From assembly GCF_001895025.1 (NCBI RefSeq), contig NZ_BCXI01000006.1, forward strand, positions 1 to 64,000: 64,000 nucleotides of DNA, written 5' to 3'. Shown here piece by piece: positions 1,584-29,839 of the stretch (position 1 is its first letter; every line of letters starts with the position of its first letter). The translations under genes and the position numbers were made by a program. Origin of the DNA: Rhodococcus zopfii NBRC 100606 = JCM 9919. Its GTDB lineage: Bacteria; Actinomycetota; Actinomycetes; Mycobacteriales; Mycobacteriaceae. The notes beneath the pieces were generated by a model, which worked only from the letters and a program-made list of their open reading frames with translations, was not told the origin of the DNA and made no database searches.

Positions 1584-2933
1584 TCAGAGGCCGGGGAACG
1601 GGGGCAGCGCGCGGTCGTACAGCCAGGTGTCCCACAGCGACCGCAGCGGTGTGTCGGTGAAACGCGCTGCGAGACCGATGAACTGCTCGGTCGTCACGTT
1701 CGAGTGCCGATGCTCCGCGGTCCAGGTGCGGAGCAGAGCGAAGAACCTGTCGTCGCCCAGATGCCGGCGGAGCGTGTGCAGGGTGAGCGCGCCGCGCTTG
1801 TAGATCCGGTCGTCGAACATGTCCTTCGGCCCCGGATCGCCCAGCAGGATGTCCTGTGGTTTGCGGGCAAGGCCGCGGTGCGCCTCGGCAGCGAGAGCCT
1901 GCGCCGACGGTCCCCCCGAGTTCTCCGCCCACAGCCACTCGGCGTAGCAGGCGAAACCCTCGTGCAGCCAGATGTCCCGCCAGCGCTCGAGAGTCAGGCT
2001 GTTGCCGAACCACTGGTGCGCCAGCTCGTGTGCGACGAGCCGCTCCTCGCGCCTGCGGCCGTCGCAGTGGTTGGCGCCGAATATCGACAGTCCCTGGGCC
2101 TCGAGCGGAATCTCGAGGTCGTCGTCGGTCACCACGACGGTGTAGTGCGCGAACGGATACGGGCCGAACAGGTTCCGGAAGACGTCCATCATCTGCGGTT
2201 GGCGCCCGAAATCGATGTCGAATCCGGCCCGCAGCCGCGGCGGGTGCACCGCGATCAGCGGAACCGGGGACGAGGACACCTTGCGGGCCTCGTAGTGCCC
2301 GATCTGCACGGTCGCCAGGTACGTCGACATCGGTTCGGGCTGCTCGTACACCCACGTCGTCTGGCTGGCCTTCGTGGTTTTCCGCAGCAGGGTGCCGTTC
2401 GCGACGGCATGGAACGGCGAGTCGGTGGTCAGGGTGATCCGGTACGTCGCCTTCGATCCGGGATGGTCGTCGCACGGGAACCACGAGGGGGCACCGTTCG
2501 GCTGGCTGGCGACGAGCGAGCCTTCCTCGAGTTCCTCCCAGCCGACCTCCCCCCACATCGAGTGGCGGGGCGTGGGCGTCCCCGAATAGTTCACGGTGAC
2601 GGTGAGCACCGCGCCCGCCGGAATCTTCTGTGCGGGTGTCACGGTCAGCTTGCCGTCACGGTGCGTGTACTTCGCCGGCCGGGCACCGTTGACCGACACC
2701 TTCGACACTCGCATCGTGTCGACGAGATCGAGCGCGTACTTGCCACGCACGTCCGTTGCGGTGGCGATGATCGTGGCCCGGCCTGCGAGGCGGTTCGACG
2801 CGACCTTGTAGTTCAGCTCCAATTCGTATCGGGACACGCGGTACCCGCGGTTGCCGCTCGTCGGCAGGTACGGGTCGAGCGGACGGTCCGTTCCCACGGG
2901 AGCAACCGGCTTGGCTGCCTTGACGGACTTCAT
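1584..2933 (-). CDS. M1-family zinc metallopeptidase (aminopeptidase N-like)
   Basis: A 449-residue M1 peptidase. It shows the N-terminal beta domain, the substrate-binding exopeptidase-like stretch (MWGEVGW rather than classical GAMEN), the zinc motif HELAHQWFGN and the downstream third ligand in WLHEGFACYAEW. Family members remove N-terminal residues or cut small peptides. It is shorter than full aminopeptidase N (about 850) because the C-terminal helical domain is absent, as in many actinobacterial members. No signal peptide is evident. The ATG at 2933 overlaps the stop of the upstream synthetase as ATGA, so the two are probably translationally coupled. Longer in-frame starts would run into the synthetase and were not used. 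Confidence 0.88.
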   Translation of the reverse strand: MKSVKAAKPVAPVGTDRPLDPYLPTSGNRGYRVSRYELELNYKVASNRLAGRATIIATATDVRGKYALDLVDTMRVSKVSVNGARPAKYTHRDGKLTVTPAQKIPAGAVLTVTVNYSGTPTPRHSMWGEVGWEELEEGSLVASQPNGAPSWFPCDDHPGSKATYRITLTTDSPFHAVANGTLLRKTTKASQTTWVYEQPEPMSTYLATVQIGHYEARKVSSSPVPLIAVHPPRLRAGFDIDFGRQPQMMDVFRNLFGPYPFAHYTVVVTDDDLEIPLEAQGLSIFGANHCDGRRREERLVAHELAHQWFGNSLTLERWRDIWLHEGFACYAEWLWAENSGGPSAQALAAEAHRGLARKPQDILLGDPGPKDMFDDRIYKRGALTLHTLRRHLGDDRFFALLRTWTAEHRHSNVTTEQFIGLAARFTDTPLRSLWDTWLYDRALPPFPGL

Positions 2934-5900
2934 CGCGGCGACCAATCTCCGGGCGTCGTCCACGGGGCGATGGGATTGCCCTGCCAGCGGGTCGATGCGG
3001 GAACGACATCTCCGCGCATCACAAGGGAGGCCGGGCCGACGGTGGCCCCGGCGCCGATGCCCGACGCCGGCAGCGCAACGCACTGCGGCCCGAGGGTGGC
3101 TCCGTTCTCGATCGTCACGGTGTCCATGGACATGATCCGATCATGGAACAGGTGCGTCTGCACCACGCACCCCCGTTCCACCGTCGCGCCGTCCTCGAGC
3201 GTCACCAGATCCGCCTCCGGCAGCCAGTAGCTTTCGCACCACACGCCGCGGCCGATGTGCGCGCCGAGCGCCCGCAGCCACAGATTCATCACGACGGTTC
3301 CCGTCGCGGGGCGCGCGAACCAGGGCGCGGCGACCATCTCGACGAACGTGTCGGACACCTCGTTCCGCCACACGAACGAACTCCACAGCGGATGCTCCAC
3401 GCGGCCGATCCGCCCGACGACCGACCATTTCGCCGCCACCGTGACGATGCACGCGACCGCGCCGGCGATCATGAGGACGACACCGCCGAGCACCAGGGCG
3501 AGCGGATAGCCACCCGCGGCCGCGAGTGCGTTCAACGCGAACAGCACACCGAGCCCGATCCCGAACGTCACCATCATCGGGACGAGCCGGAATGTTTCGA
3601 CGACTCCCCGCGCGACCTTCAGCTTCAGCGGGGGAGCGAACGTGCGGCTCGAATCGGAGTCGCCGGCAGAACGGCGCAATCGGACCGGGGGGCTGCCCAG
3701 CCACGACGAACCGGACTTGGCCTTCGTCGGTGCCGCGGACAGCACCGCGACGAGACCGTGCTTCGGGACCCGGCGTCCAGGCGCGGCCATACCCGAATTG
3801 CCGAGGAACGCGCGTTTGCCGACCTTCGCGTGCGAGATGAACAGCCAGCCGCCACCGAGCTCGTAGGACGCGACCATGGTGTCGTCGGCGAGGAACGCAC
3901 CGTCGGCGACCTTCGTGAACTTGGGGACCATCAGCACGGTCGACGCTTCGACGTCCTTGCCGATGTCGGCGCCGAGCAGCCGCAGCCAGATCGGGGTGAG
4001 CATCGAGGCGTACAGCGGGAACAGGAAGGTGCGTGACGAGTCCATGAGCCGTTCGGTGGCCCAGACCTGCCAGCCGACACGGCTGCGCACCGGGTGCCAG
4101 CCCTCGACCATGCCGATGGACAGCAGCCGCACCGACGCGACCGTGAGCAGCGCGAACACGAACATCGTGAGCACGCCGGCGGCGGGCAGCATCACGAGGG
4201 ACCGGACGACGGCGTCGGGCAGGGTGGCGGTGTCGCTGACCCACCAGCCGATCAGGGCGACGCCCGAACCGATCGCGACGAGGGGCAGCCCGGCGATCAT
4301 CACCGAGCTCGCACCGAACACCGGCACCCATCCCGGCGCGCGGCGCGGCGGTTCGGCGGGCCAGGGATGGGCGGCGCGCCCGACCTTCACGGCGGGCGAG
4401 CCGGCCCACTGCTGTCCGGCCTTGACCCGCCCGAACACTGCCGAGCCCGCTTCGACCACGGCGTTCTTGCCGATCTTGCAGCCGGGATTGAGAGTGGACC
4501 GGGCGCCGACCGAGGCGCCGGCCCCGATCCGGATCGTGCCGATGTGCACCACGTCGCCGTCGACCCAGTGGCCGGACAGGTCGACCTCGGGTTCGATCGA
4601 GCAGCCGTCGCCGAGTTCGAGCATGCCGGTCACCGGGGGCAGGCTGTGCAGATCGACGCCGCGCCCGATCTTCGCGCCGAGCGCCCGGGCGTAGTAGAGC
4701 ATCCACGGCGCACCGGACAGATTCGCCGCGCCGCTCGCCTCGACCAGCCGCAGCGACGTCCACAGCCGGAGATGCACGGAGCCGCCGCGACGGTAGGTGC
4801 CGGGTTTCACCCCGCGCAGCAGCACCCGGGCACCGGCGACCGCGATCGTCATGCGGCCGAGTGGGGTGATGAACAGCAGCACGCCGAGCGCGGTCCACCA
4901 CCACGACAGGGTGACGGTCCACGGCACCGAGACGACGGTCGCGAGCACGTTGTTGAGCACGGCCAGCCACGTCACCCACTGCATGCCGGTCAAGGTGGCC
5001 AGCGGGACGGTCGCGGCGATCTGGGCCAGCTGCGCGGACCGCGGCGTCGGTTCGACCTTGCGCGGAGTGACGGTCTCGGTCGGGGCGAGCTCGTCGAGGT
5101 ACAGGGCGAGCGAACCCAGCCGCGGATGGTCGTACAGCTCCGCGACGGTCATCTCCGGATAGCGTTCGCGAAGGGCTGTCACCAGCTGGGCTGCCGACAG
5201 CGAGCCGCCGCCGAGTTCGAAGAAGTCGTCGTCGAGCCCTTCGACGCGAGCGCCGAGCAGCGACATCCACAGGCTCGCGACCCATTCGGCGGTGGGGTCG
5301 AGTCCGAGTGCTTCGGCGGAGTCCGCGTCGGTGCCGGGCAGCGGCCACGGCAGCGCGGCCCGGTCGACCTTGCCGGACGTGCGGGTGGGGAGTTCGTCGA
5401 CGAGCGCGAGCCGCGGAACCATCGCCGCGGGGAGCTGCTCGGTGAGCAGGTCGCGGGCGGAGGCGACATCGAAGTCCGGGTCGGTGCTGGCGATGTAGCC
5501 GATGAGCATCGCGTGTCCGGCCGCGGTCTTGCGCACGGCGCACGCGCCACCCGCGACGCCCGGCAGGTTCTGCAGGGCGTTGTCGATCTCGCCGAGTTCG
5601 ATGCGCCGCCCGCCGATCTTGACCTGGTCGTCGGCGCGTCCCTGGAAGAGCAGGCCACGACGATCGAGTGTCACCAGGTCGCCGCTGCGGTAGGCGCGCT
5701 CCCAGCCGAGCGTCGGCATCGGCGCGTACTTCTCCGCGTCCTTGGCGGGGTCGAGGTAGCGGGCGAGGCCGACTCCGCCGATGACGAGTTCGCCGGTCGC
5801 GCCCTCTTCGACGGGTACACCGTCGGCGTCGACGACCGCGAGGTCCCAGCCGTCGAGAGGCAGGCCGATGCGGATGGGACCGAGGCCGTCCATCGGGGCG

Positions 5901-6838
5901 GCGCACGCGACGACGGTCGCTTCGGTGGGGCCGTACGTGTTCCACACTTCCCGCTCGGGCACGGCGAGCCGTTCGGCGAGGTCGGGGGGACAGGCCTCCC
6001 CGCCGAAGATGAGCAGCCGCACCGCTTCGAGTGCCTCGGCGGGCCACATCGCCGCGAGCGTCGGCACCGTGGAGACGACGGTGATGTCGCGTGAGACCAG
6101 CCACGGACCCAGATCCATGCCGGAACGCACCAGCGATCGGGGAGCGGGCACCAGGCACGCTCCGTGCCGCCACGCCAGCCACATCTCCTCACAGGACGCG
6201 TCGAACGCCACCGACAGGCCGGCGAGCACCCGGTCTCCGGGTCCGATCGGGTTGTCCTGCAGGAACATCCGCGCTTCGGCGTCGACGAACGCGGCGGCGT
6301 TGCGGTGCGTGACGGCGACGCCCTTCGGGGTGCCCGTCGACCCCGAGGTGAAGATGATCCAGGCGTCGTCGCCGAGCCGTGGTCCGCGCACCTGCGGATC
6401 GGCGGACGCCGGCGCGGTGCCCGGGCCGATCCCCGCCTCCGTGACGATCGCGGTGACGTCCGCCTCCCCGAACACCAGCTCGGCTCGTTCGTCCGGGTCG
6501 TCCGCGTCGACGGGGACGTACGCCGCGCCCGCGGCGAGCACCGACAGGATCGTGATGTACAGGTCCTTGGTACCGGACGGCATGCGCACCCCGACCCGGT
6601 CGCCGGCGCCGACTCCGGCGTCGGTCAGGCGGTAGGCGCCCGCGATGATCTCCTCGGCTAGTTCCGAGTAGCTGAGCGTGACCTTGCCGTCGTCGATCGC
6701 GGGGACGTCGGGATGCGCGTCGGCGGTACTGCGCAGGATGTCGACGAGGGTCCGAGGGGCGGGCGCGAACGACGAACGCAGGTACTCGTCCGGTACTCGA
6801 GCGGGCCGACCCGGATCCGTCGTGGGCTGGACAGACAA
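2930..6838 (-). CDS. Pls/PosA-family nonribosomal peptide synthetase
   Basis: A 1302-residue single-module synthetase. Residues about 30-510 form an AMP-binding adenylation domain with the A3 loop FTSGSTGTPKG (about 163-173) and the YRSGD motif. Residues about 520-610 form a carrier domain with the phosphopantetheine site DDFFELGGGSLS. The rest is the hallmark C-terminal part of Pls-type enzymes: several transmembrane segments alternating with left-handed beta-helix (hexapeptide) tandem domains. In epsilon-poly-L-lysine synthetase this part performs peptide bond formation without a condensation or thioesterase domain. The substrate here is unknown. I chose the TTG at 6838 because GAAGGA lies eight bases upstream and the protein then starts just before the adenylation domain; the open frame extends further to 7186. 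Confidence 0.9.
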   Translation of the reverse strand: MSVQPTTDPGRPARVPDEYLRSSFAPAPRTLVDILRSTADAHPDVPAIDDGKVTLSYSELAEEIIAGAYRLTDAGVGAGDRVGVRMPSGTKDLYITILSVLAAGAAYVPVDADDPDERAELVFGEADVTAIVTEAGIGPGTAPASADPQVRGPRLGDDAWIIFTSGSTGTPKGVAVTHRNAAAFVDAEARMFLQDNPIGPGDRVLAGLSVAFDASCEEMWLAWRHGACLVPAPRSLVRSGMDLGPWLVSRDITVVSTVPTLAAMWPAEALEAVRLLIFGGEACPPDLAERLAVPEREVWNTYGPTEATVVACAAPMDGLGPIRIGLPLDGWDLAVVDADGVPVEEGATGELVIGGVGLARYLDPAKDAEKYAPMPTLGWERAYRSGDLVTLDRRGLLFQGRADDQVKIGGRRIELGEIDNALQNLPGVAGGACAVRKTAAGHAMLIGYIASTDPDFDVASARDLLTEQLPAAMVPRLALVDELPTRTSGKVDRAALPWPLPGTDADSAEALGLDPTAEWVASLWMSLLGARVEGLDDDFFELGGGSLSAAQLVTALRERYPEMTVAELYDHPRLGSLALYLDELAPTETVTPRKVEPTPRSAQLAQIAATVPLATLTGMQWVTWLAVLNNVLATVVSVPWTVTLSWWWTALGVLLFITPLGRMTIAVAGARVLLRGVKPGTYRRGGSVHLRLWTSLRLVEASGAANLSGAPWMLYYARALGAKIGRGVDLHSLPPVTGMLELGDGCSIEPEVDLSGHWVDGDVVHIGTIRIGAGASVGARSTLNPGCKIGKNAVVEAGSAVFGRVKAGQQWAGSPAVKVGRAAHPWPAEPPRRAPGWVPVFGASSVMIAGLPLVAIGSGVALIGWWVSDTATLPDAVVRSLVMLPAAGVLTMFVFALLTVASVRLLSIGMVEGWHPVRSRVGWQVWATERLMDSSRTFLFPLYASMLTPIWLRLLGADIGKDVEASTVLMVPKFTKVADGAFLADDTMVASYELGGGWLFISHAKVGKRAFLGNSGMAAPGRRVPKHGLVAVLSAAPTKAKSGSSWLGSPPVRLRRSAGDSDSSRTFAPPLKLKVARGVVETFRLVPMMVTFGIGLGVLFALNALAAAGGYPLALVLGGVVLMIAGAVACIVTVAAKWSVVGRIGRVEHPLWSSFVWRNEVSDTFVEMVAAPWFARPATGTVVMNLWLRALGAHIGRGVWCESYWLPEADLVTLEDGATVERGCVVQTHLFHDRIMSMDTVTIENGATLGPQCVALPASGIGAGATVGPASLVMRGDVVPASTRWQGNPIAPWTTPGDWSPR

Positions 6839-7033: not shown

Positions 7034-7115
7034 CAGGTCACGAGTACCAGCATCAAGCCCCGGCTCGCTGGTCGGCAACCCTCCACCGCGGTGGGGTGCT
7101 CCGGGTGACGACCTG
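7034..7115 (+). ncRNA. SAM-IV riboswitch
   Basis: The RNA reads CAGGTCACGAG, then a stem around CCAGC/GCTGG, CAAGCCCCGGC, CGGCAACCCTCC, an ACCGCGGT stem, GGGGTG and CCGGGTGACGACCTG. This order and the invariant blocks (GTCACGAG, CAAGCCCCGG, GGCAACCCTCC, GGTGGGGTG, GGGTGA) match the SAM-IV class known from Actinomycetales, which shares the SAM-I binding core but has a different scaffold. Outer stem P1 pairs CAGGTC (7034-7039) with GACCTG (7110-7115). High S-adenosylmethionine is expected to switch off the downstream aminotransferase at 7219. The class call rests on recognised motifs; a covariance-model search would confirm it. Confidence 0.88.
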
Positions 7116-7192
7116 GCTGCGGATCCGAAAACCGGACGCAGCAAGCGCGGACTCCGCCGGCGATCGAACATCGTCGTGGCGATCACCGACGG

Positions 7193-7213
7193 GTCCCTGA
7201 ACGGACAAGGGAC
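7193..7213 (+). promoter_or_regulatory. Shine-Dalgarno-sequestering hairpin (riboswitch expression platform)
   Basis: GTCCCT (7193-7198) is the exact complement of AGGGAC (7208-7213), with a nine-base loop. The right arm contains the ribosome site AAGGGA, which lies six bases before the ATG at 7219. Formation of this hairpin would block initiation. With no terminator-like U-tract between aptamer and gene, translational control is the simplest reading. How the aptamer couples to this hairpin is inferred, not seen. Confidence 0.6.
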
Positions 7214-7218
7214 TAATC

Positions 7219-8532
7219 ATGACTGTTGCATCGACCGCCACCTGCATCGCGCCCATCGCTCGCGTGTCCGGCTGTGACCTGCAGGTTCCGCTCGTCCAGG
7301 GCGGCACCTGCACGTACGTCAACTTCGACTACGCCGCGAGTGCTCCGGCCCTGGCCGCCGTCACCGACCGCATCGCCGAACTGCTGCCCTTCTACGCCAG
7401 CGTGCACCGCGGTGCCGGCTACGCCTCGCGGGTCACCACCGATGCCTACGAGAAGTGCCGGGCCGTGGTCTCCGGATTCGTCGGTGCCGCCGACGACCAG
7501 GTCGTCGTGTTCACCCGCAACACCACCGATTCGCTGAACCTGCTCGCGACCGCGGTGCCGGGTGAGGTCGTCCTGCTCGACATCGAGCATCACGCGAATC
7601 TGTTGCCGTGGAGGAACTCCCGCATCGTGGAGGCGGCCGACACGGTCGCCGGGACGATCGAGCGGCTCGCCGCGGAACTGCGCCGGGCGCCGGCCGCGCT
7701 GCTCGCGATCACCGGAGCCTCGAACGTCACCGGTGAGCTGCTGCCCATCGGGGAACTGACCGACCTCGCGCACGAGTGCGGGGCGCGCATCCTGGTCGAC
7801 GGCGCGCAGTTGGTGCCGCATCGCCGGATCGACCTCGCCGCAACCGGAGTCGACTATCTCGCGTTCTCCGGCCATAAGACGTACGCGCCGTTCGGTGCCG
7901 GCGTCCTCGTCGGCCGCCGCGACTGGCTCGATGTGGCCGAGCCCTACCTCGCCGGTGGCGGCGCGGTGCGTGAGGTACGCCTGGACCACACCGAATGGGC
8001 CTGCGCCCCTGCGCGTCACGAGGCCGGTTCGCCGAACGTGCTCGGTGCCGCGGCGATCGCGGCGGCCTGCGACGCGCTCGCCGGTTTCGACGCCGACGCG
8101 GTGGCCCGCCACGAAGAGGAGCTGAGCGCGCTGCTGGTCGCGGGTCTGCACGAAATCGACGGGGTCGAACTGCTCCGCCTCTGGGAGGACTCGTGCGATT
8201 CCGTCGGCATCGTCACGTTCACGGTCGCCGGTTACGAACCCGCGGAGATCGCGGCGTACCTGTCTGCCGAGCACGGCATCGGCGTCCGCGACGGACGCTT
8301 CTGCGCGCACCCGTTGCTCGCCCGTGTGGGCCGCGCCGGAGGCGCGGTGCGGGCTTCCCTGGGGCTGGGTAGCTCGTCCGACGACGTCGAGCGTCTGGTC
8401 GGTGCGCTCCGTCGCCTCGTCGAGCACGGCCCGTCCTGGACCTACGCCAAGACCGACGGCCTGTGGGGTCCGTCGCCGGAGACCCGCCCGGGTCTCGCGG
8501 TGGAGGGTGCCGGCGCGTCGGAGTGCGTCTGA
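7219..8532 (+). CDS. SufS-like class V aminotransferase (cysteine desulfurase family)
   Basis: A 437-residue PLP enzyme of fold type I. The PLP lysine is K220 in SGHKTYAPFG, the PLP-phosphate region is FTRNTTDSLN and the active-site HHAN motif is present. A SufS-type catalytic cysteine is in GVRDGRFCAHP (C362). Group II cysteine desulfurases mobilise sulfur from cysteine as persulfide. The SAM-IV riboswitch directly upstream places it in sulfur or methionine metabolism; whether it is a desulfurase, a C-S lyase or another sulfur enzyme is open, as no suf partner is nearby. Apart from the initiator it has no methionine, though it keeps about ten cysteines. ATG 7219 follows AAGGGA at ideal spacing. 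Confidence 0.85.
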   Translation: MTVASTATCIAPIARVSGCDLQVPLVQGGTCTYVNFDYAASAPALAAVTDRIAELLPFYASVHRGAGYASRVTTDAYEKCRAVVSGFVGAADDQVVVFTRNTTDSLNLLATAVPGEVVLLDIEHHANLLPWRNSRIVEAADTVAGTIERLAAELRRAPAALLAITGASNVTGELLPIGELTDLAHECGARILVDGAQLVPHRRIDLAATGVDYLAFSGHKTYAPFGAGVLVGRRDWLDVAEPYLAGGGAVREVRLDHTEWACAPARHEAGSPNVLGAAAIAAACDALAGFDADAVARHEEELSALLVAGLHEIDGVELLRLWEDSCDSVGIVTFTVAGYEPAEIAAYLSAEHGIGVRDGRFCAHPLLARVGRAGGAVRASLGLGSSSDDVERLVGALRRLVEHGPSWTYAKTDGLWGPSPETRPGLAVEGAGASECV

Positions 8533-8577
8533 CCCTCGCGATCGACAATTTCCCACAAGATCGGTAGGGTATTACCC

Positions 8578-8670
8578 ATGGCATCGCAGACCGCATCGAA
8601 CGTCGTCGCACCGTGGTGCCGTCGTCATGTCGATCTGTGCCGCACCGCCTCCGGCATGTGTACGAGCTGA
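8578..8670 (+). CDS. Cysteine-rich leader peptide upstream of the LLM-like gene
   Basis: ATG 8578 opens a 30-codon frame ending in RRHVDLCRTASGMCTS. It closely matches a second leader at 10518-10589 (RRHVDLCRTRSCLCAN) on the other strand. Peptides with the HVDLCR core are widespread before sulfur-assimilation genes of actinobacteria. The ATG lies seven bases after the TANNNT-type box TAGGGT (8565-8570), so the message is probably leaderless. Cysteine codons sit at positions 14, 21 and 28. Ribosome stalling there at low cysteine or low Cys-tRNA would affect expression of the gene at 8735. A weak hairpin (GCCGC 8698-8702 with GCGGC 8713-8717) lies between. Too short for standard gene finders. 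Confidence 0.8.
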   Translation: MASQTASNVVAPWCRRHVDLCRTASGMCTS

Positions 8671-8734
8671 ACGACACCCCCGTCTCCACAGCTCATCGCC
8701 GCGGGATCGCCTGCGGCAGTTCGAAGGAACCCAC

Positions 8735-9322
8735 ATGTCGTACAGCAATGTCGTTCACGCCGTTTCGTCCACCCGCCCGCTGCGTGTCGCCGTCGAACTC
8801 GTCGGCCCGTCCGGCCCGCACTACTGGGCCGATCTCACCGCCGGTCGATCGGGCGAGGATTCGCTCGATCTGAGTGCGTCGCAACCGAATGTCGTGCGGA
8901 TTCGCGCCACCGATCTGCGCGAGACCCGCAAGGCCCGCGATCGCGTCCGCGCCGAACTCGTCGCCGAAGGTCGCGACCCCGACAGCGTCACCGTCCTGGT
9001 CGATCTCGAGGTGGTCGTGGCATCCGAGGCACGTAGCGCCCGAAAGCAATACGCGCAGTTGGACAGTCCGCGCGCGACGGACACCCTCTCGTACGTCGGC
9101 ACCCCACAGGGCCTGGCGGGTCTCATTGCCGACATCCACTCCACACGCGTCGCGGACGGTGTCACCCTCGTTCCGCTGGCGGCGCCGTTCACCGTCGAGC
9201 ACATCGTGGACGGCACGCTTCCGTGGCTCGAGTCCCGCGATCTCGCGGTGACCGCACCGTCCGTCGTGGAAGTGCTGCGCCGCTTCGGAACCGGTGGCCG
9301 AGGGCTTACCCGGGCCTCGTAG
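8735..9322 (+). CDS. Short LLM (luciferase-like) flavin monooxygenase homologue
   Basis: A 195-residue protein. Its region RIRATDLRETRKARDRVRAEL...VTVLVDLEVVVA...YVGTPQGLAGLIADIH...ADGVTLVPL...LPWLESRDL resembles the C-terminal third of luciferase-like monooxygenases of the nitrilotriacetate/DszA/SsuD type, where G-T-P and ADG motifs recur. The N-terminal flavin- and substrate-binding half of these roughly 350-450 residue enzymes is absent, so catalysis is doubtful. It may be a partner or stand-alone regulatory subunit. Its cysteine leader peptide and the nearby leader-controlled flavin reductase suggest sulfur scavenging. It contains no cysteine and only the initiator methionine. ATG 8735 follows GAAGGA. 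Confidence 0.6.
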   Translation: MSYSNVVHAVSSTRPLRVAVELVGPSGPHYWADLTAGRSGEDSLDLSASQPNVVRIRATDLRETRKARDRVRAELVAEGRDPDSVTVLVDLEVVVASEARSARKQYAQLDSPRATDTLSYVGTPQGLAGLIADIHSTRVADGVTLVPLAAPFTVEHIVDGTLPWLESRDLAVTAPSVVEVLRRFGTGGRGLTRAS

Positions 9323-9353
9323 CCTCCTACGTTCCGTCCGGATTCGAAAAGCC

Positions 9354-9389
9354 GAATGGGGCGAGAGAACGGATTCTCTCGCCCCATTC
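9354..9389. terminator. Perfect 16-bp hairpin, bidirectional terminator
   Basis: GAATGGGGCGAGAGAA (9354-9369) pairs perfectly with TTCTCTCGCCCCATTC (9374-9389) across the loop CGGA. It lies between the convergent ends of the LLM-like gene and the winged-helix gene and could serve both. There is no T-tract, as is common in high-GC actinobacteria. Confidence 0.75.
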
Positions 9390-9398
9390 GCCGTGTCG

Positions 9399-9881
9399 TC
9401 AGGCCGAACGCCGGGTCAGAGGTTCGACGATGTGCACGCCGGGATGGGGATCGAAACGGTAACCGGTTCCCCGCACCGTCGTGATGATGGATCCGAATCT
9501 TCCCAGCTTCGTACGGATTCGGGACACGTGTACGTCGACGCTGCGCCCTCGTCGCTGATCGATATCCGTTGCGGCGGGATCGAGTTCCCGCAGTGTCGTC
9601 CGGGACACGACTACGCGAGGTCGCTGGACCAGCCGGGAAAGGATGTCGAATTCGGTGTGGCTGAGCAGAATTCGTGAGTTGTCGAGAATCACGTCGCGGG
9701 CGGGCAGATCGATCACCAAAGGTACCGGTGTGGAGCTCAGCAGCGTGTGCGTGCTCACTCCGGGCACGAGATCCTGTGCGGTTTCGCGCAACGCGTCGGC
9801 GAGCGCGGCGAGATCCGTCGACGAACGCACGCCGGTGTTGGAAAGCTGTACGACCAGTACGAGTTCGGGAGTTGTGGTCAT
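9399..9881 (-). CDS. Orphan winged-helix (OmpR/PhoB-type) DNA-binding protein
   Basis: A 160-residue protein. The C-terminal 85 residues form a trans_reg_C winged helix: [34 protein letters not shown] and TVRGTGYRF. The N-terminal 70 residues do not form a response-regulator receiver (no acidic pocket or phospho-Asp), so it is not a two-component regulator. Its ATG overlaps the flavin reductase stop as ATGA, so it is co-translated with that gene and shares its cysteine leader. It may regulate sulfur genes; the target is unknown. It has no cysteine and no internal methionine. A longer frame reaches 10091, but ATG 9881 fits the coupling. Confidence 0.8.
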
Positions 9882-10441
9882 GGTGTCGTGTCCAATGGTG
9901 TGGGCCGGTGGTAAACGCCGTCGTGGTAGAGCAACGGACCCGCCGGCGACTCGGTATCGGTGATGGCCGTATCGGCGACGAGGCCGACGACCAGAGTGCT
10001 GTCCCCGACCGGGATCAATTGGTGCACAAGAAGACGCAGGCGAACAGGCGTGTCGTGGAGGGCAGGCTCGCCGGTGTCGAGACGACCCCACAGCGAACGG
10101 TCTGCGAAGCGCTCGTCGGCGCTGCGCGCGAAACGCTGTGCCAGATGTCGTTGGTCCTCGCCCAGCAGGTGCACCACGAGCGAGTCCGCCGCGTGCACGG
10201 CGTCGATGCTCGACGATGTGTGAGTGATGTTGAACGACACCAGCGGTGGGTTCAGAGACAGTGAGGAGAACGACGTCGCGGTGAAACCGACCGGGCCGTC
10301 TCCGGAATCGAGCGTGACGATGGTGACGCCTGCCGGGTGGCGGCGCAACGCGGAGCGGTACTCCTCGTTGCCGACGCCCAGGGCGAATTCGGGGGCGGTG
10401 GCGTCGGCGCGGTCGGCGACAGGGGAATGTGAAGTGGGCAT
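9878..10441 (-). CDS. Flavin reductase family protein (FMN reductase-like)
   Basis: A 187-residue protein of the flavin reductase-like domain family: [44 protein letters not shown] flavin loop, and a C-terminal LLYHDGVYH. Family members bind FMN and supply reduced flavin to two-component monooxygenases, such as those that release sulfite from sulfonates. The LLM-like protein on the opposite side of the cluster is the obvious candidate partner. Expression is predicted to depend on the cysteine leader at 10518-10589 and on the hairpin that covers its ribosome site. It contains no cysteine and no internal methionine. ATG 10441 follows AGGGA with five bases between. Confidence 0.85.
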
Positions 10442-10447
10442 TGCCGT

Positions 10448-10488
10448 CCCTGGAGAGGCTGCCCCCGGAAAGAAGCTGGGGGACAGGG
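10448..10488 (-). promoter_or_regulatory. Hairpin covering the ribosome site of the flavin reductase
   Basis: On the minus strand CCCTG (10488-10484) pairs with CAGGG (10452-10448), and inside it CCCCC (10482-10478) pairs with GGGGG (10466-10462). The outer right arm contains the AGGGA ribosome site of the flavin reductase. The structure lies between the cysteine leader and the gene, the position expected for a translational attenuator. Confidence 0.6.
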
Positions 10489-10517
10489 CGAATGATCAGA
10501 TGGAATGAGTGTGGGCG

Positions 10518-10589
10518 TCAGTTCGCACACAGGCACGAGCGGGTACGGCACAGGTCGACATGCCTGCGGCTCCACGCTCGGATAGTCAC
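10518..10589 (-). CDS. Cysteine-rich leader peptide upstream of the flavin reductase
   Basis: GTG 10589 opens a 23-codon frame ending in RRHVDLCRTRSCLCAN, nearly the same core as the leader at 8578-8670. Cysteine codons are at positions 14, 19 and 21. The GTG lies six bases after the -10 box TATAGT (10601-10596), so the transcript very probably starts at or next to the GTG and is leaderless. Leaderless cysteine-codon leaders that attenuate sulfur genes are known in mycobacteria. The controlled operon would be flavin reductase plus winged-helix protein. Confidence 0.82.
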   Translation of the reverse strand: MTIRAWSRRHVDLCRTRSCLCAN

Positions 10590-11149: not shown

Positions 11150-11671
11150 TCAGTAGAGCGGAAAGCCGTCCTCCGGTCCCAGCATGCGTTCGAGGCGGGT
11201 ACGGGTGACCTTCGCCAGCTCGTCGGTGCGGATCTTCCGTTCGGCATCGACGTCGTTGCCGAGACGGTGGACGAGGTCGGCGAGCAGTTCGTCCGGCCCG
11301 CGGCCGCCCGGACACCACAGATAGCGGAATCCGAACCGTTGCTCGTACTCGTGGGCCGACTGCGCGATCGCCGCCATGGTTTGTGGATCCTCGTCCCACA
11401 TCGAGGAGTGGTCGGCGCGTGAATGTGCGCTTCGCGGCCGGCCGCCGACGATCGGATGGCAGTCCAGGGCATCGGCGATTCCCGTCTCGTCCAGCGTCAC
11501 GAGCACCGCGTCGGCGCGGGCGAACAGTTCGGTGTGGCTCGCATAGGGGCGTCCGGCGGCGACCGGGTTCGCCCACCCGAGCGACGCGCAGCACTCGTAC
11601 AGCGCGTGGACGGCGCCGCGGCGACTGAGGGCATTGAACGCACCGAGACCGATTCCCTGATGCAGAAGCAT
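11150..11671 (-). CDS. OHCU decarboxylase-like protein (uraD family)
   Basis: A 173-residue all-helical protein resembling 2-oxo-4-hydroxy-4-carboxy-5-ureidoimidazoline decarboxylase, which converts OHCU to S-allantoin in urate breakdown. Recognisable are the N-terminal FNALS, the catalytic-histidine region DCHPIVG, a YEQRFGFRYLWCPGGRGPDELLADLVHRLGND stretch, and a C-terminal RTDELAKVTRTRLERML. The family's S-R-x-E-Q segment reads SRADHSS, so the conserved Glu-Gln is replaced by Asp-His and activity needs testing. No other urate gene is near. Confidence 0.7.
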   Translation of the reverse strand: MLLHQGIGLGAFNALSRRGAVHALYECCASLGWANPVAAGRPYASHTELFARADAVLVTLDETGIADALDCHPIVGGRPRSAHSRADHSSMWDEDPQTMAAIAQSAHEYEQRFGFRYLWCPGGRGPDELLADLVHRLGNDVDAERKIRTDELAKVTRTRLERMLGPEDGFPLY

Positions 11672-29284: not shown

Positions 29285-29295
29285 GAATGGTCGGC

Positions 29296-29337
29296 GTGAT
29301 CCGCTGCATGAGTGCCCAGGAGTGTTGTCGAGGCTGA
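29296..29337 (+). CDS. Cysteine-rich leader peptide upstream of the rhodanese-like gene
   Basis: GTG 29296 opens a 13-codon frame MIRCMSAQECCRG with cysteines at 4, 10 and 11. The tandem TGT TGT codons lie at 29323-29328. It follows the coaX stop by eleven bases and a TAAGAAT-like box by seven, so a leaderless transcript is plausible. It belongs to a different sequence type from the HVDLCR leaders but serves the same apparent purpose. The tandem cysteine codons are part of the left arm of a hairpin that covers the ribosome site of the next gene. Confidence 0.75.
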   Translation: MIRCMSAQECCRG

Positions 29338-29377: not shown

Positions 29378-29839
29378 ATGCGCGCTGCGCTTGCTGTTTC
29401 TGCATCTTTCTCCGCTTCCTCTGCTACGGCTTCCGTCGGCGTGTTGCCGCTGACGACAGAGCGGACCTATCCCACCGAGCTCGCCGCCGCCGTGGCCCGT
29501 GGCGCCGTCGTCGTCGACATCCGTACCAGCGCCGAGCGCACCGTCCAGGGCACCCTTCCGGGCGCTCTCGCGATCGACTCCTCGTTGTTGACGCGGCGCC
29601 TCGACCCGGCCGGGGCCGAGCGGCTGGCTCTCGCTGTCGATCGTGATGTCGAATGGGTCGTCGTGTCCGCGGACGGGCCGCTCGCGCATCGCGCCGTCGC
29701 GGCCCTGCAGGAACTCGGCCTGCGTCGCGCGACCGGCCTCGTCGGCGGGTATGCCGCGATCAAGACGGCCGGCCTCGTCGACGCTGTCACCCGCGCGCAG
29801 CACATCGCGGACGACGTGGCCCGCGTCACGGCGCATTGA
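29378..29839 (+). CDS. Rhodanese-like domain protein lacking the catalytic cysteine
   Basis: A 153-residue single-domain rhodanese fold: AVARGAVVVDIRTSAERTVQG at the N-terminal part, and EWVVVSADGPLAHRAVAAL...LGLRRATGLVGGYAAIK. The active-site loop, normally C-R-x-G-x-R after the fourth strand, reads SADGPLAHR without cysteine; the protein contains no cysteine at all and no internal methionine. It is therefore not a classical sulfurtransferase and may bind or present a ligand instead. The gene sits behind a cysteine-codon leader between coaX and lysS, where mycobacteria have only a tiny gene. The Ala/Ser-rich N-terminus is unusual but not a clear signal peptide. Confidence 0.8.
   Translation: MRAALAVSASFSASSATASVGVLPLTTERTYPTELAAAVARGAVVVDIRTSAERTVQGTLPGALAIDSSLLTRRLDPAGAERLALAVDRDVEWVVVSADGPLAHRAVAALQELGLRRATGLVGGYAAIKTAGLVDAVTRAQHIADDVARVTAH

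Follow-up and report, generated by a model that had tools for sequence, protein, structure and literature searches.

Methionine avoidance and sulfur-poor proteins behind cysteine leaders and a SAM-IV riboswitch in Rhodococcus zopfii

The window, i.e. the whole stretch of 64,000 nucleotides that was analysed, opens contig NZ_BCXI01000006.1 of Rhodococcus zopfii and carries the following genes and RNA elements:

7036..7153, plus strand: SAM-IV riboswitch aptamer (RF00634; cmscan 106.6 bits, gathering score 38)
7219..8532, plus strand: SufS-like cysteine desulfurase / aminotransferase class V, 437 aa, ten Cys, no internal Met (counts, families, family alignment)
8578..8670, plus strand: cysteine leader A, MASQTASNVVAPWCRRHVDLCRTASGMCTS and stop (NF042934, 28 bits, cut-off 27)
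8735..9322, plus strand: LLM-like protein, 195 aa, no Cys, no internal Met (TIGR03860, E 6e-15)
9399..9881, minus strand: winged-helix (Trans_reg_C) protein, 160 aa, no Cys, no internal Met (PF00486, E 6.5e-16)
9878..10441, minus strand: flavin reductase, 187 aa, no Cys, no internal Met (PF01613, E 5e-33)
10518..10589, minus strand: cysteine leader B, (V/M)TIRAWSRRHVDLCRTRSCLCAN and stop (NF042934, 30 bits, cut-off 27)
11150..11671, minus strand: uraD-like neighbour, four Cys, three internal Met (residue counts)
29287..29337, plus strand: short polycysteine leader, MVGVIRCMSAQECCRG and stop (kept across genus genomes)
29378..29839, plus strand: rhodanese-like protein, 153 aa, no Cys, no internal Met (PF00581, E 6.5e-7)

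The aptamer covers the whole SAM-IV model (positions 1-116 of 116), and SAM-IV was found in 18/18 genus genomes. The gene behind it encodes a relative of SufS-type cysteine desulfurases, from the same sequence family and with the same catalytic Cys and adjoining motif; unlike them, the window protein is Met-free and Cys-rich and scores below the curated SufS cut-off (TIGR01979, 290.6 versus 475.1 bits), so that it is not filed as SufS. The likeness of the LLM-like protein to NtaA/DmoA-type monooxygenases is confined to part of the TIGR03860 profile (55.1 bits, far under the cut-off of 279.7 for a full-length member), and its AlphaFold model is too poor to use (mean pLDDT 44.8). Lacking any Cys in 18/18 genomes, the rhodanese-like protein has no catalytic Cys; it counts as a domain match only, not as an active sulfurtransferase.

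Leaders A and B both reach the curated cut-off of 27 bits of NCBIfam NF042934 (cis_reg_atten leader peptide), with profile matches at 8614-8661 and 10527-10580; in the genome search, they scored 27.2 (A, with neighbours in frame) and 27.9 bits (B). By sequence, 64 nt separate the stop of leader A from its gene, and 76 nt that of leader B. Leader A is present at 21/21 LLM-like loci, one of which has Gly replacing the first core Cys, and leader B precedes the gene for the flavin reductase or the winged-helix protein in 11/21 relatives; the polycysteine leader before the rhodanese-like gene ends in QECCRG in 18/18 genus genomes. In mycobacteria, polycysteine leader sORFs are described as Cys-responsive attenuators of downstream genes (PMC9094748, on Canestrari 2020). 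The leaders here resemble them in their Cys codons, and A and B match the Ms5788A leader family (NF042933) at 18.2 and 20.9 bits, below its cut-off of 45; they differ in that the RHVDL leaders precede the LLM-like gene and the flavin reductase/winged-helix pair. The composition of the genes behind the mycobacterial leaders is unmentioned in the available part of PMC9094748.

For the RNA of the rhodanese leader (fold z -4.4), base-pairing with both the Shine-Dalgarno sequence and the initiation codon of the rhodanese-like gene is predicted. Compensatory changes were found in 0/33 predicted pairs of this hairpin, the sequence being too conserved for covariation support. Leader A folds slightly better than its shuffles (z -2.0) and leader B no better (z -0.3); thus, folding proves no mechanism for either.

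The sulfur-poor composition of the window proteins is real. Indeed, recounting confirmed the absence of Cys and internal Met that the original prediction had reported for the LLM-like, flavin reductase, winged-helix and rhodanese-like proteins, as well as the ten Cys and missing internal Met of the SAM-IV gene product and the several Cys and Met of the uraD-like neighbour. Its estimate of about 690 residues, with more than ten sulfur amino acids expected, becomes 695 aa with 14.3 expected from the genome's own frequencies of Cys (0.657%) and internal Met (1.406%) over 599 called genes in 712,562 bp. The corresponding Poisson probability of zero sulfur residues beyond the starts (6e-7) is post hoc, since the original prediction had picked the four proteins, and one single short Cys/Met-free protein is not rare: of 99 other proteins of 140-209 aa from this genome, four likewise contain neither Cys nor internal Met. 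It is the conservation of the composition in relatives that excludes chance. Orthologue counts were made on tblastn-anchored frames, because the gene caller had missed the window winged-helix gene and trimmed some starts. Among LLM-like relatives (48-93% identity), Cys is absent in 21/21 and Met in 19/21; the rhodanese-like protein lacks Cys in 18/18 and Met in 12/18 genomes, window included; and the winged-helix protein is free of both at 11/14 loci, window included and one truncated. The flavin reductase is less strict, with 3/12 relatives Cys/Met-free. Across Rhodococcus, orthologues keep this low content, most loosely in the flavin reductase. The window copy of the latter lies below both the background and 7/9 of its own-genome paralogues, as a sulfur-sparing protein should; the seven countable ones all hold 2-6 Cys, the gene caller having missed the other two.

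Behind the SAM-IV element, the pattern is different, and the counts support an almost absolute avoidance of Met together with Cys above background. The 47 homologues of the desulfurase-like family, all with SAM-IV at their loci (47/47), contain 2 internal Met and 371 Cys in 20,387 aa (Cys 1.82%), and in 19 representatives at 80% identity the total is still 136 Cys against 2 Met. Apart from two near-invariant columns (46/47 and 47/47 members), the Cys positions are labile. The catalytic Cys (RFCAHP in the window protein), which we take to be at the position of the catalytic Cys in the SufS motif, is kept in 47/47 members and in 5/5 homologues without SAM-IV. Outside SAM-IV loci, the closest readable homologue (44% identity) has three Cys and seven Met, and four SufS-type controls, at whose loci no SAM-IV was found, have 5-8 Met. 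In a genus alignment of 16 orthologues, Met occurs in 0/33 hydrophobic-variable columns, versus 7-40% of such columns in the 11 testable families outside the locus. The above-background Cys of this family is a separate observation, which sparing does not explain.

The class-wide comparison of genes behind Cys leaders with their neighbours revealed a depletion, mainly in Met (0.622% versus 1.284%; lower in 51/58 loci, p 9e-9). The 60 class loci were hand-picked from roughly 160 listed places, mostly one per genome, and two of them were dropped for want of a called operon gene. Across the leader operons as a whole, Cys is barely reduced (0.672 versus 0.719, 38/58 loci, p 0.053); it is lower behind leaders with at least two Cys codons (0.473 versus 0.712, 32/41 loci, p 7e-5) and higher behind single-Cys leaders (0.941 versus 0.736, lower in 6/17), probably because putative sulfite and APS reductases are among the genes that the latter precede. 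SseA-type operons are particularly poor in Met (0.136%, lower in 26/26 loci), and the five own-genome leader loci follow the same trend (Met 0.606 versus 1.475, lower in 5/5); behind the own leader on contig C15, the genes are not clearly depleted (Cys and Met 3 and 2, 2 and 4, 0 and 1, 2 and 5, 1 and 5). A bias due to membrane proteins was rejected, as restricting the comparison to soluble proteins leaves the Met result unchanged and makes that for Cys clearer (lower in 46/55 and 42/55 loci, respectively).

Could these trends simply reflect chance, common descent or structural limits on these families? Single short Cys/Met-free proteins do occur, and orthologues are not independent observations. 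However, the trend persists across 46 leader versus 466 background protein clusters (Met p 1.6e-6, Cys p 0.049), relatives in the same families have normal content (such as the MetY-related enzymes not downstream of SAM-IV, at about 35% identity, in this genome and three relatives, with 2-3 Cys and 6-8 Met in 5/5), and the hydrophobic positions of the genus desulfurase-like alignment vary freely, never to Met. Conservation and the cluster test thus lead us to reject chance, and we regard this whole explanation as very improbable. No more credible is an avoidance of oxidizable residues, in which flavin monooxygenases and their partners, leaking reactive oxygen, would have lost Met and Cys to resist oxidation. 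Many depleted proteins do match flavin monooxygenase or reductase families, but the countable flavin reductase paralogues of this genome keep their Cys, SseA-type sulfurtransferases, MetY and the winged-helix protein are equally Met-poor without flavin, and the desulfurase-like family retains many Cys.

According to the original prediction, composition is matched to each individual RNA regulator, a Cys leader entailing no Cys and a SAM riboswitch no Met. This claim is partly supported. In its favour, the desulfurase-like family is joined by a second SAM-IV target, an unrelated protein of about 130 residues that is Met-free in 7/7 sequences with 2.47% Cys (no Pfam family was found for two examples, nor an NCBIfam family for the one tested). 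Met does not exceed 0.52% in the first gene at any of 30 SAM-IV loci, taken one per genome for their best scores and thus not a random sample (one gene, at L302, is incomplete and six extend beyond the stretch examined). Genes behind Cys leaders are Cys-free in the window and in relatives, and the monooxygenases of two operons with tandem SAM riboswitch and Cys leader (L136 and L080, the latter's leader being below cut-off) lack Cys and Met alike, although elsewhere in these operons some Met is retained. Against it, metX, found at 9/11 SAM-IV loci examined for it, has normal Met (1.61%, nine sequences), and SAM-IV-linked MetY has hardly any of either amino acid (0-1 Cys and 0-3 Met in 13/13 aligned stretches). 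Moreover, Met falls more than the sensed Cys behind Cys leaders, and SAM-IV targets form only six families, with p 0.035 for Met and 0.71 for Cys against background. As a general rule, strict matching is thereby rejected by metX, MetY and the weak Cys effect, and it is unlikely to hold in the form first proposed.

Conversely, starvation-induced proteins might lose sulfur whatever their regulator, the Cys-rich desulfurase being an accident of chemistry or history. Of the ten most depleted genes in our own-genome sample, nine belong to monooxygenase/ABC operons (contigs C35, C29, C10 and C19), in a sample where 20/34 stretches were chosen for leaders, SAM-IV, or monooxygenase or flavin reductase matches (the 259 genes of the remaining stretches average 0.650% Cys and 1.543% Met). 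The operons on C35 and C10 are as depleted as leader-linked ones, with no NF042934 match among those listed (of 240 candidates, 150 were scored), no Rfam riboswitch reaching the gathering score and, upstream of the C35 operon, no Cys leader seen by eye; these operons count against regulator matching too, and the leader as sole cause of depletion is rejected. General sparing would also account for MetY, nearly free of both amino acids though SAM-IV senses SAM only, and the sparing published for R. qingshengii covers, in the available part of PMC8557817, proteins without stated RNA regulators. It fits poorly, however, with 47 desulfurase homologues that are nearly Met-free while holding most of their Cys at labile positions, and with the same split in the unrelated second target. 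We consider it possible but doubtful as the sole explanation. An amino-acid-resolved sparing, in which the metabolite sensed by the switch predicts the sulfur amino acid that is avoided, is proposed with similar reserve. SAM-sensing genes would lose Met while retaining or even gaining Cys, Cys-sensing ones would lose both, Met being derived from Cys, genes under tandem control would have neither, and the desulfurase would turn Cys sulfur towards Met at times when SAM alone is short.

The explanation that we favour, and hold to be rather probable, is a sulfur-limitation regulon whose proteins were selected for low sulfur content, Cys being spared only where Cys itself is short. In these soil bacteria, the proteins almost without sulfur amino acids are probably those needed when sulfur is short, as their low content would allow their synthesis to continue through such a scarcity. 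In this strain, RHVDL-type and polycysteine leader peptides would act as cysteine-supply attenuators, and low S-adenosylmethionine would open the SAM-IV-controlled gene. A shortage of Cys would also be one of Met, made from Cys sulfur, which may explain why Cys-leader genes avoid both; the desulfurase-like enzyme may avoid Met only because it would be needed at low SAM while Cys can still be present, perhaps passing Cys sulfur towards homocysteine through MetY. That MetY behind SAM-IV avoids Cys as well is not predicted by this last argument.

Should Met-only avoidance hold up, the composition of a protein would record the starvation under which its gene was selected. Sequence alone could then separate Cys-limited from SAM-limited genes and reveal unrecognized regulon members, such as the SAM-IV-linked protein of about 130 residues, and the idea of cognate bias would be tied to single cis-acting RNAs instead of entire pathways. 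Low cognate bias was reportedly treated earlier by Alves and Savageau, in 2005.

Sulfur sparing with Cys and Met counts is already published for Rhodococcus: under sulfate starvation, R. qingshengii IGTS8 has abundant proteins in which per-protein counts of Cys and Met are low or zero, a starvation-linked response like that considered here and in the same genus (PMC8557817, 2021). Its MetY, induced by sulfur limitation, has no Cys and one Met, and two rhodanese-family proteins, not necessarily orthologues of the window protein, were lower, not higher, in sulfate-free culture (PMC8557817), which counts against the regulon proposed here. The terms riboswitch, leader peptide, attenuation and sORF do not occur in the main text of PMC8557817, nor does its available part hold a case of Met-only avoidance. 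Low cognate bias, whereby enzymes required during the lack of an amino acid are themselves poorer in it, was defined for biosynthetic pathways (Fasani and Savageau, PMC4209129), and riboswitches are not mentioned in the available part of that article. Over genomes, this bias was significant for Cys and not for Met (0.1, P 0.2; PMC4209129); among the RNA-regulated genes described here, by contrast, Met avoidance is the stronger effect.

Four short proteins of the window contain neither Cys nor Met apart from the start residue, and a fifth, the desulfurase-like protein, keeps its Cys and lacks internal Met. The Cys and Met counts in the original prediction proved correct for all five proteins when recounted.

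Sulfur-poor proteins of the window and neighbouring cysteine leaders
7219-8532 (+), desulfurase-like protein (SufS-like/aminotransferase class V), 437 residues, 10 Cys, no internal Met
8578-8670 (+), cysteine leader A, reaching the NCBIfam NF042934 cut-off
8735-9322 (+), LLM-like protein, no Cys, no Met beyond the start
9399-9881 (-), winged-helix protein, no Cys, no Met beyond the start
9878-10441 (-), flavin reductase, no Cys, no Met beyond the start
10518-10589 (-), cysteine leader B, reaching the NCBIfam NF042934 cut-off
29287-29337, short leader MVGVIRCMSAQECCRG, upstream of the rhodanese-like gene
29378-29839 (+), rhodanese-like protein, no Cys, no Met beyond the start

The background composition (Cys 0.657%, internal Met 1.406%) was taken from 599 called genes on 712,562 bases, approximately 11% of this 6.3 Mb genome, 20 of the 34 stretches being chosen and not random. 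In the 695 residues of the four proteins, 14.3 sulfur residues are expected, and the Poisson probability of finding none is 6e-7, a post hoc figure. Singly, short proteins free of Cys and Met are not exceptional (4/99 other proteins of 140-209 residues in the same genome). Judged from the sequences, it is conservation that carries the weight against chance. Indeed, the 21 named loci related to the window's LLM-like gene (20 Rhodococcus, one of them metagenome-assembled, and one Antrihabitans; 48-93% identity) encode proteins that are Cys-free in 21/21 cases and Met-free in 19/21, with leader A upstream in all 21, one having Gly in place of the first Cys of the core. All 18 genus genomes, window included, encode a rhodanese-like protein without Cys, which lacks Met as well in 12/18, and its leader ends with QECCRG in all 18. 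The winged-helix protein lacks both amino acids at 11 of 14 loci (one of these truncated). The flavin reductase is lean yet looser, as 3 of 12 relatives are free of both; in six Rhodococcus relatives (L313, L315, L317, L320, L321 and L322) it occurs without detectable leader B, and two of these six copies have 3 and 4 Met. Seven of the nine other flavin reductases of the genome could be counted, all with 2-6 Cys. The sulfur-poor composition is real, conserved and not a product of chance.

The LLM-like protein (195 aa) matches the NtaA/DmoA monooxygenase profile over part of the profile only. In the rhodanese-like protein, Ser stands at the expected active-site position, and, as Cys is absent in 18/18 genomes, there is no catalytic Cys.

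Of 118 genomes taken from the class, 75 contain leaders of family NF042934. Sixty leader loci were hand-picked from the class list, and for the 58 that yielded an operon, Met amounts to 0.622% versus 1.284% in neighbouring genes (lower in 51/58, p = 9e-9), and Cys to 0.672% versus 0.719% (lower in 38/58, p = 0.053). Behind leaders with at least two Cys codons, both are reduced (Met: 0.455% versus 1.316%, lower in 37/41 loci; Cys: 0.473% versus 0.712%, lower in 32/41), whereas behind leaders with one Cys codon Met is reduced (0.848% versus 1.201%, lower in 14/17) and Cys is lower in only 6/17 (0.941% versus 0.736%). SseA-type operons reach 0.136% Met, below their neighbours in 26/26 cases. When soluble proteins only are considered, Met is lower in 46/55 loci and Cys in 42/55; comparison of 46 leader with 466 background protein clusters gives p = 1.6e-6 for Met and p = 0.049 for Cys. 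Therefore, leader-linked genes are sulfur-poor, Met being depleted more than the Cys that the leader reads.

The desulfurase-like gene, placed behind a SAM-IV riboswitch scoring 106.6 bits in the window, gives the strongest single result. In the 20,387 residues of its product and 46 homologues (about 45-95% identity), internal Met occurs twice and Cys 371 times; when thinned at 80% identity, the set comprises 19 representatives with 2 Met and 136 Cys. The catalytic Cys (47/47) and C284 (46/47) are the two near-invariant Cys positions, and the remaining ones come and go, so that Cys is tolerated rather than required. Among 16 genus orthologues, Met occupies none of the 437 columns past the start; hydrophobic-variable columns hold Met in 0/33 cases in this alignment, versus 7-40% in 11 testable families outside the locus. 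SAM-IV lies at 47/47 desulfurase-like loci (window, genus genomes, other Rhodococcus, Antrihabitans, class genome G053, Nocardia, Nonomuraea and an order-wide set), the order-wide loci having been retrieved through SAM-IV itself and hence selected for having it. Other orders contain at least 17 homologues with 50% or higher identity, of which one (G053, read as L136) is counted here. The nearest readable homologue without SAM-IV, a single close control from a Methylobacterium plasmid (44% identity), has 3 Cys and 7 Met, and four SufS-type controls from loci without SAM-IV have 5-8 Met. Avoidance of Met alone is strong in this SAM-IV desulfurase-like family, a pattern not met in the literature searched.

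The other SAM-IV targets share no single trend.

Riboswitch-linked or sulfur-poor loci outside the window
L252, 10128-10520 (-), 119-136-residue protein behind a third SAM-IV
L248, 9981-10382 (-), the same protein
L083 (R. zopfii), just below 9713 (-), the same protein
L136 (class genome G053), 1956-2418, two SAM-IV aptamers back to back
L080 (R. zopfii contig C29), 9848-10022 (-), SAM riboswitch (RF00162)
L239 (contig C35), 10027-19813 (+), strongly sulfur-poor operon
L246 (contig C10), 11664-19364 (+), strongly sulfur-poor operon

At the 30 best-scoring SAM-IV loci of the order, one per genome, the first gene (18 desulfurase-like, 11 MetY-like, one SfnG-type monooxygenase) has at most 0.52% Met. 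The 119-136-residue protein is Met-free in 7/7 cases with 2.47% Cys, and gave no Pfam match in two examples and no NCBIfam match in the one tested. MetY behind SAM-IV is nearly free of both amino acids (0-1 Cys and 0-3 Met in 13/13 aligned stretches, two partial); MetY-related enzymes at ~35% identity, none downstream of SAM-IV, have 2-3 Cys and 6-8 Met in 5/5. Rhodococcus metX behind SAM-IV has ordinary Met (1.61%; 5-7 in 9/9), and a fourth SAM-IV precedes the gene of a 152-residue protein with one Cys and one Met in 2/2 genomes. Six SAM-IV families taken together are low in Met (p = 0.035) but not in Cys (p = 0.71). In L136, one aptamer precedes a Met-free desulfurase-like gene; the other is followed directly by a Cys leader and a monooxygenase operon, the first two proteins of which contain neither Cys nor Met, an arrangement that reads as putative tandem SAM and Cys control. 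In L080, the SAM riboswitch is directly upstream of a Cys leader, which scores below its cut-off, and of an ABC/monooxygenase operon with three genes (382, 456 and 361 or 368 aa by start called) without Cys and Met.

In the R. zopfii sample, nine of the ten genes with the strongest depletion belong to monooxygenase/ABC-transporter operons on contigs C35, C29, C10 and C19. For C35 and C10, there was no leader among the matches listed and no riboswitch at gathering score; sulfur sparing thus seems not to need such RNA. The idea that these proteins lack the very amino acid sensed by their own RNA switch is half correct: sulfur sparing is a general phenomenon, in part already published, but metX and MetY break the match between composition and individual regulator.

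Selection during sulfur limitation would be the cause of this composition. As Cys shortage implies Met shortage, both would be avoided behind Cys leaders; a lack of SAM does not necessarily entail a lack of Cys, so that the desulfurase-like protein would avoid Met alone. As a guess from shared SAM-IV control, this enzyme might feed Cys sulfur to MetY. Leaders A and B are assigned by profile and would act as their mycobacterial precedent does (Canestrari 2020, as cited in PMC9094748). For the rhodanese-like gene, RNA of the polycysteine leader upstream is predicted to fold into a hairpin with the gene's Shine-Dalgarno and start codon (z -4.4), and a ribosome held at the two Cys codons of this leader would keep the gene open. 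The hairpin pairs are conserved with no compensatory change, so that this mechanism is a model, not proof.

A sulfur-sparing response with Cys and Met counts is described in R. qingshengii (PMC8557817), in a main text containing neither 'riboswitch' nor 'leader peptide'. The same source reports two rhodanese-family proteins as lower in sulfate-free culture, which would not fit a starvation role if either is the orthologue of the window's protein. Low cognate bias is the wider concept, in which Cys pathways are reported to show bias and Met pathways not (PMC4209129). Composition matched to individual RNA regulators was found in no paper of the literature searched, in which subscription journals are poorly covered.

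Adjoining the sulfur locus, 2930-6838 (-) encodes a large NRPS-like protein with AMP-binding, acyl-carrier and acyltransferase-repeat matches (11 Cys and 32 Met in 1302 residues). Near an SseA-type operon of the same genome, the actinobacterial sRNA Ms_IGR-5 (RF02471) lies at 5688-5905 (+) of locus L079.
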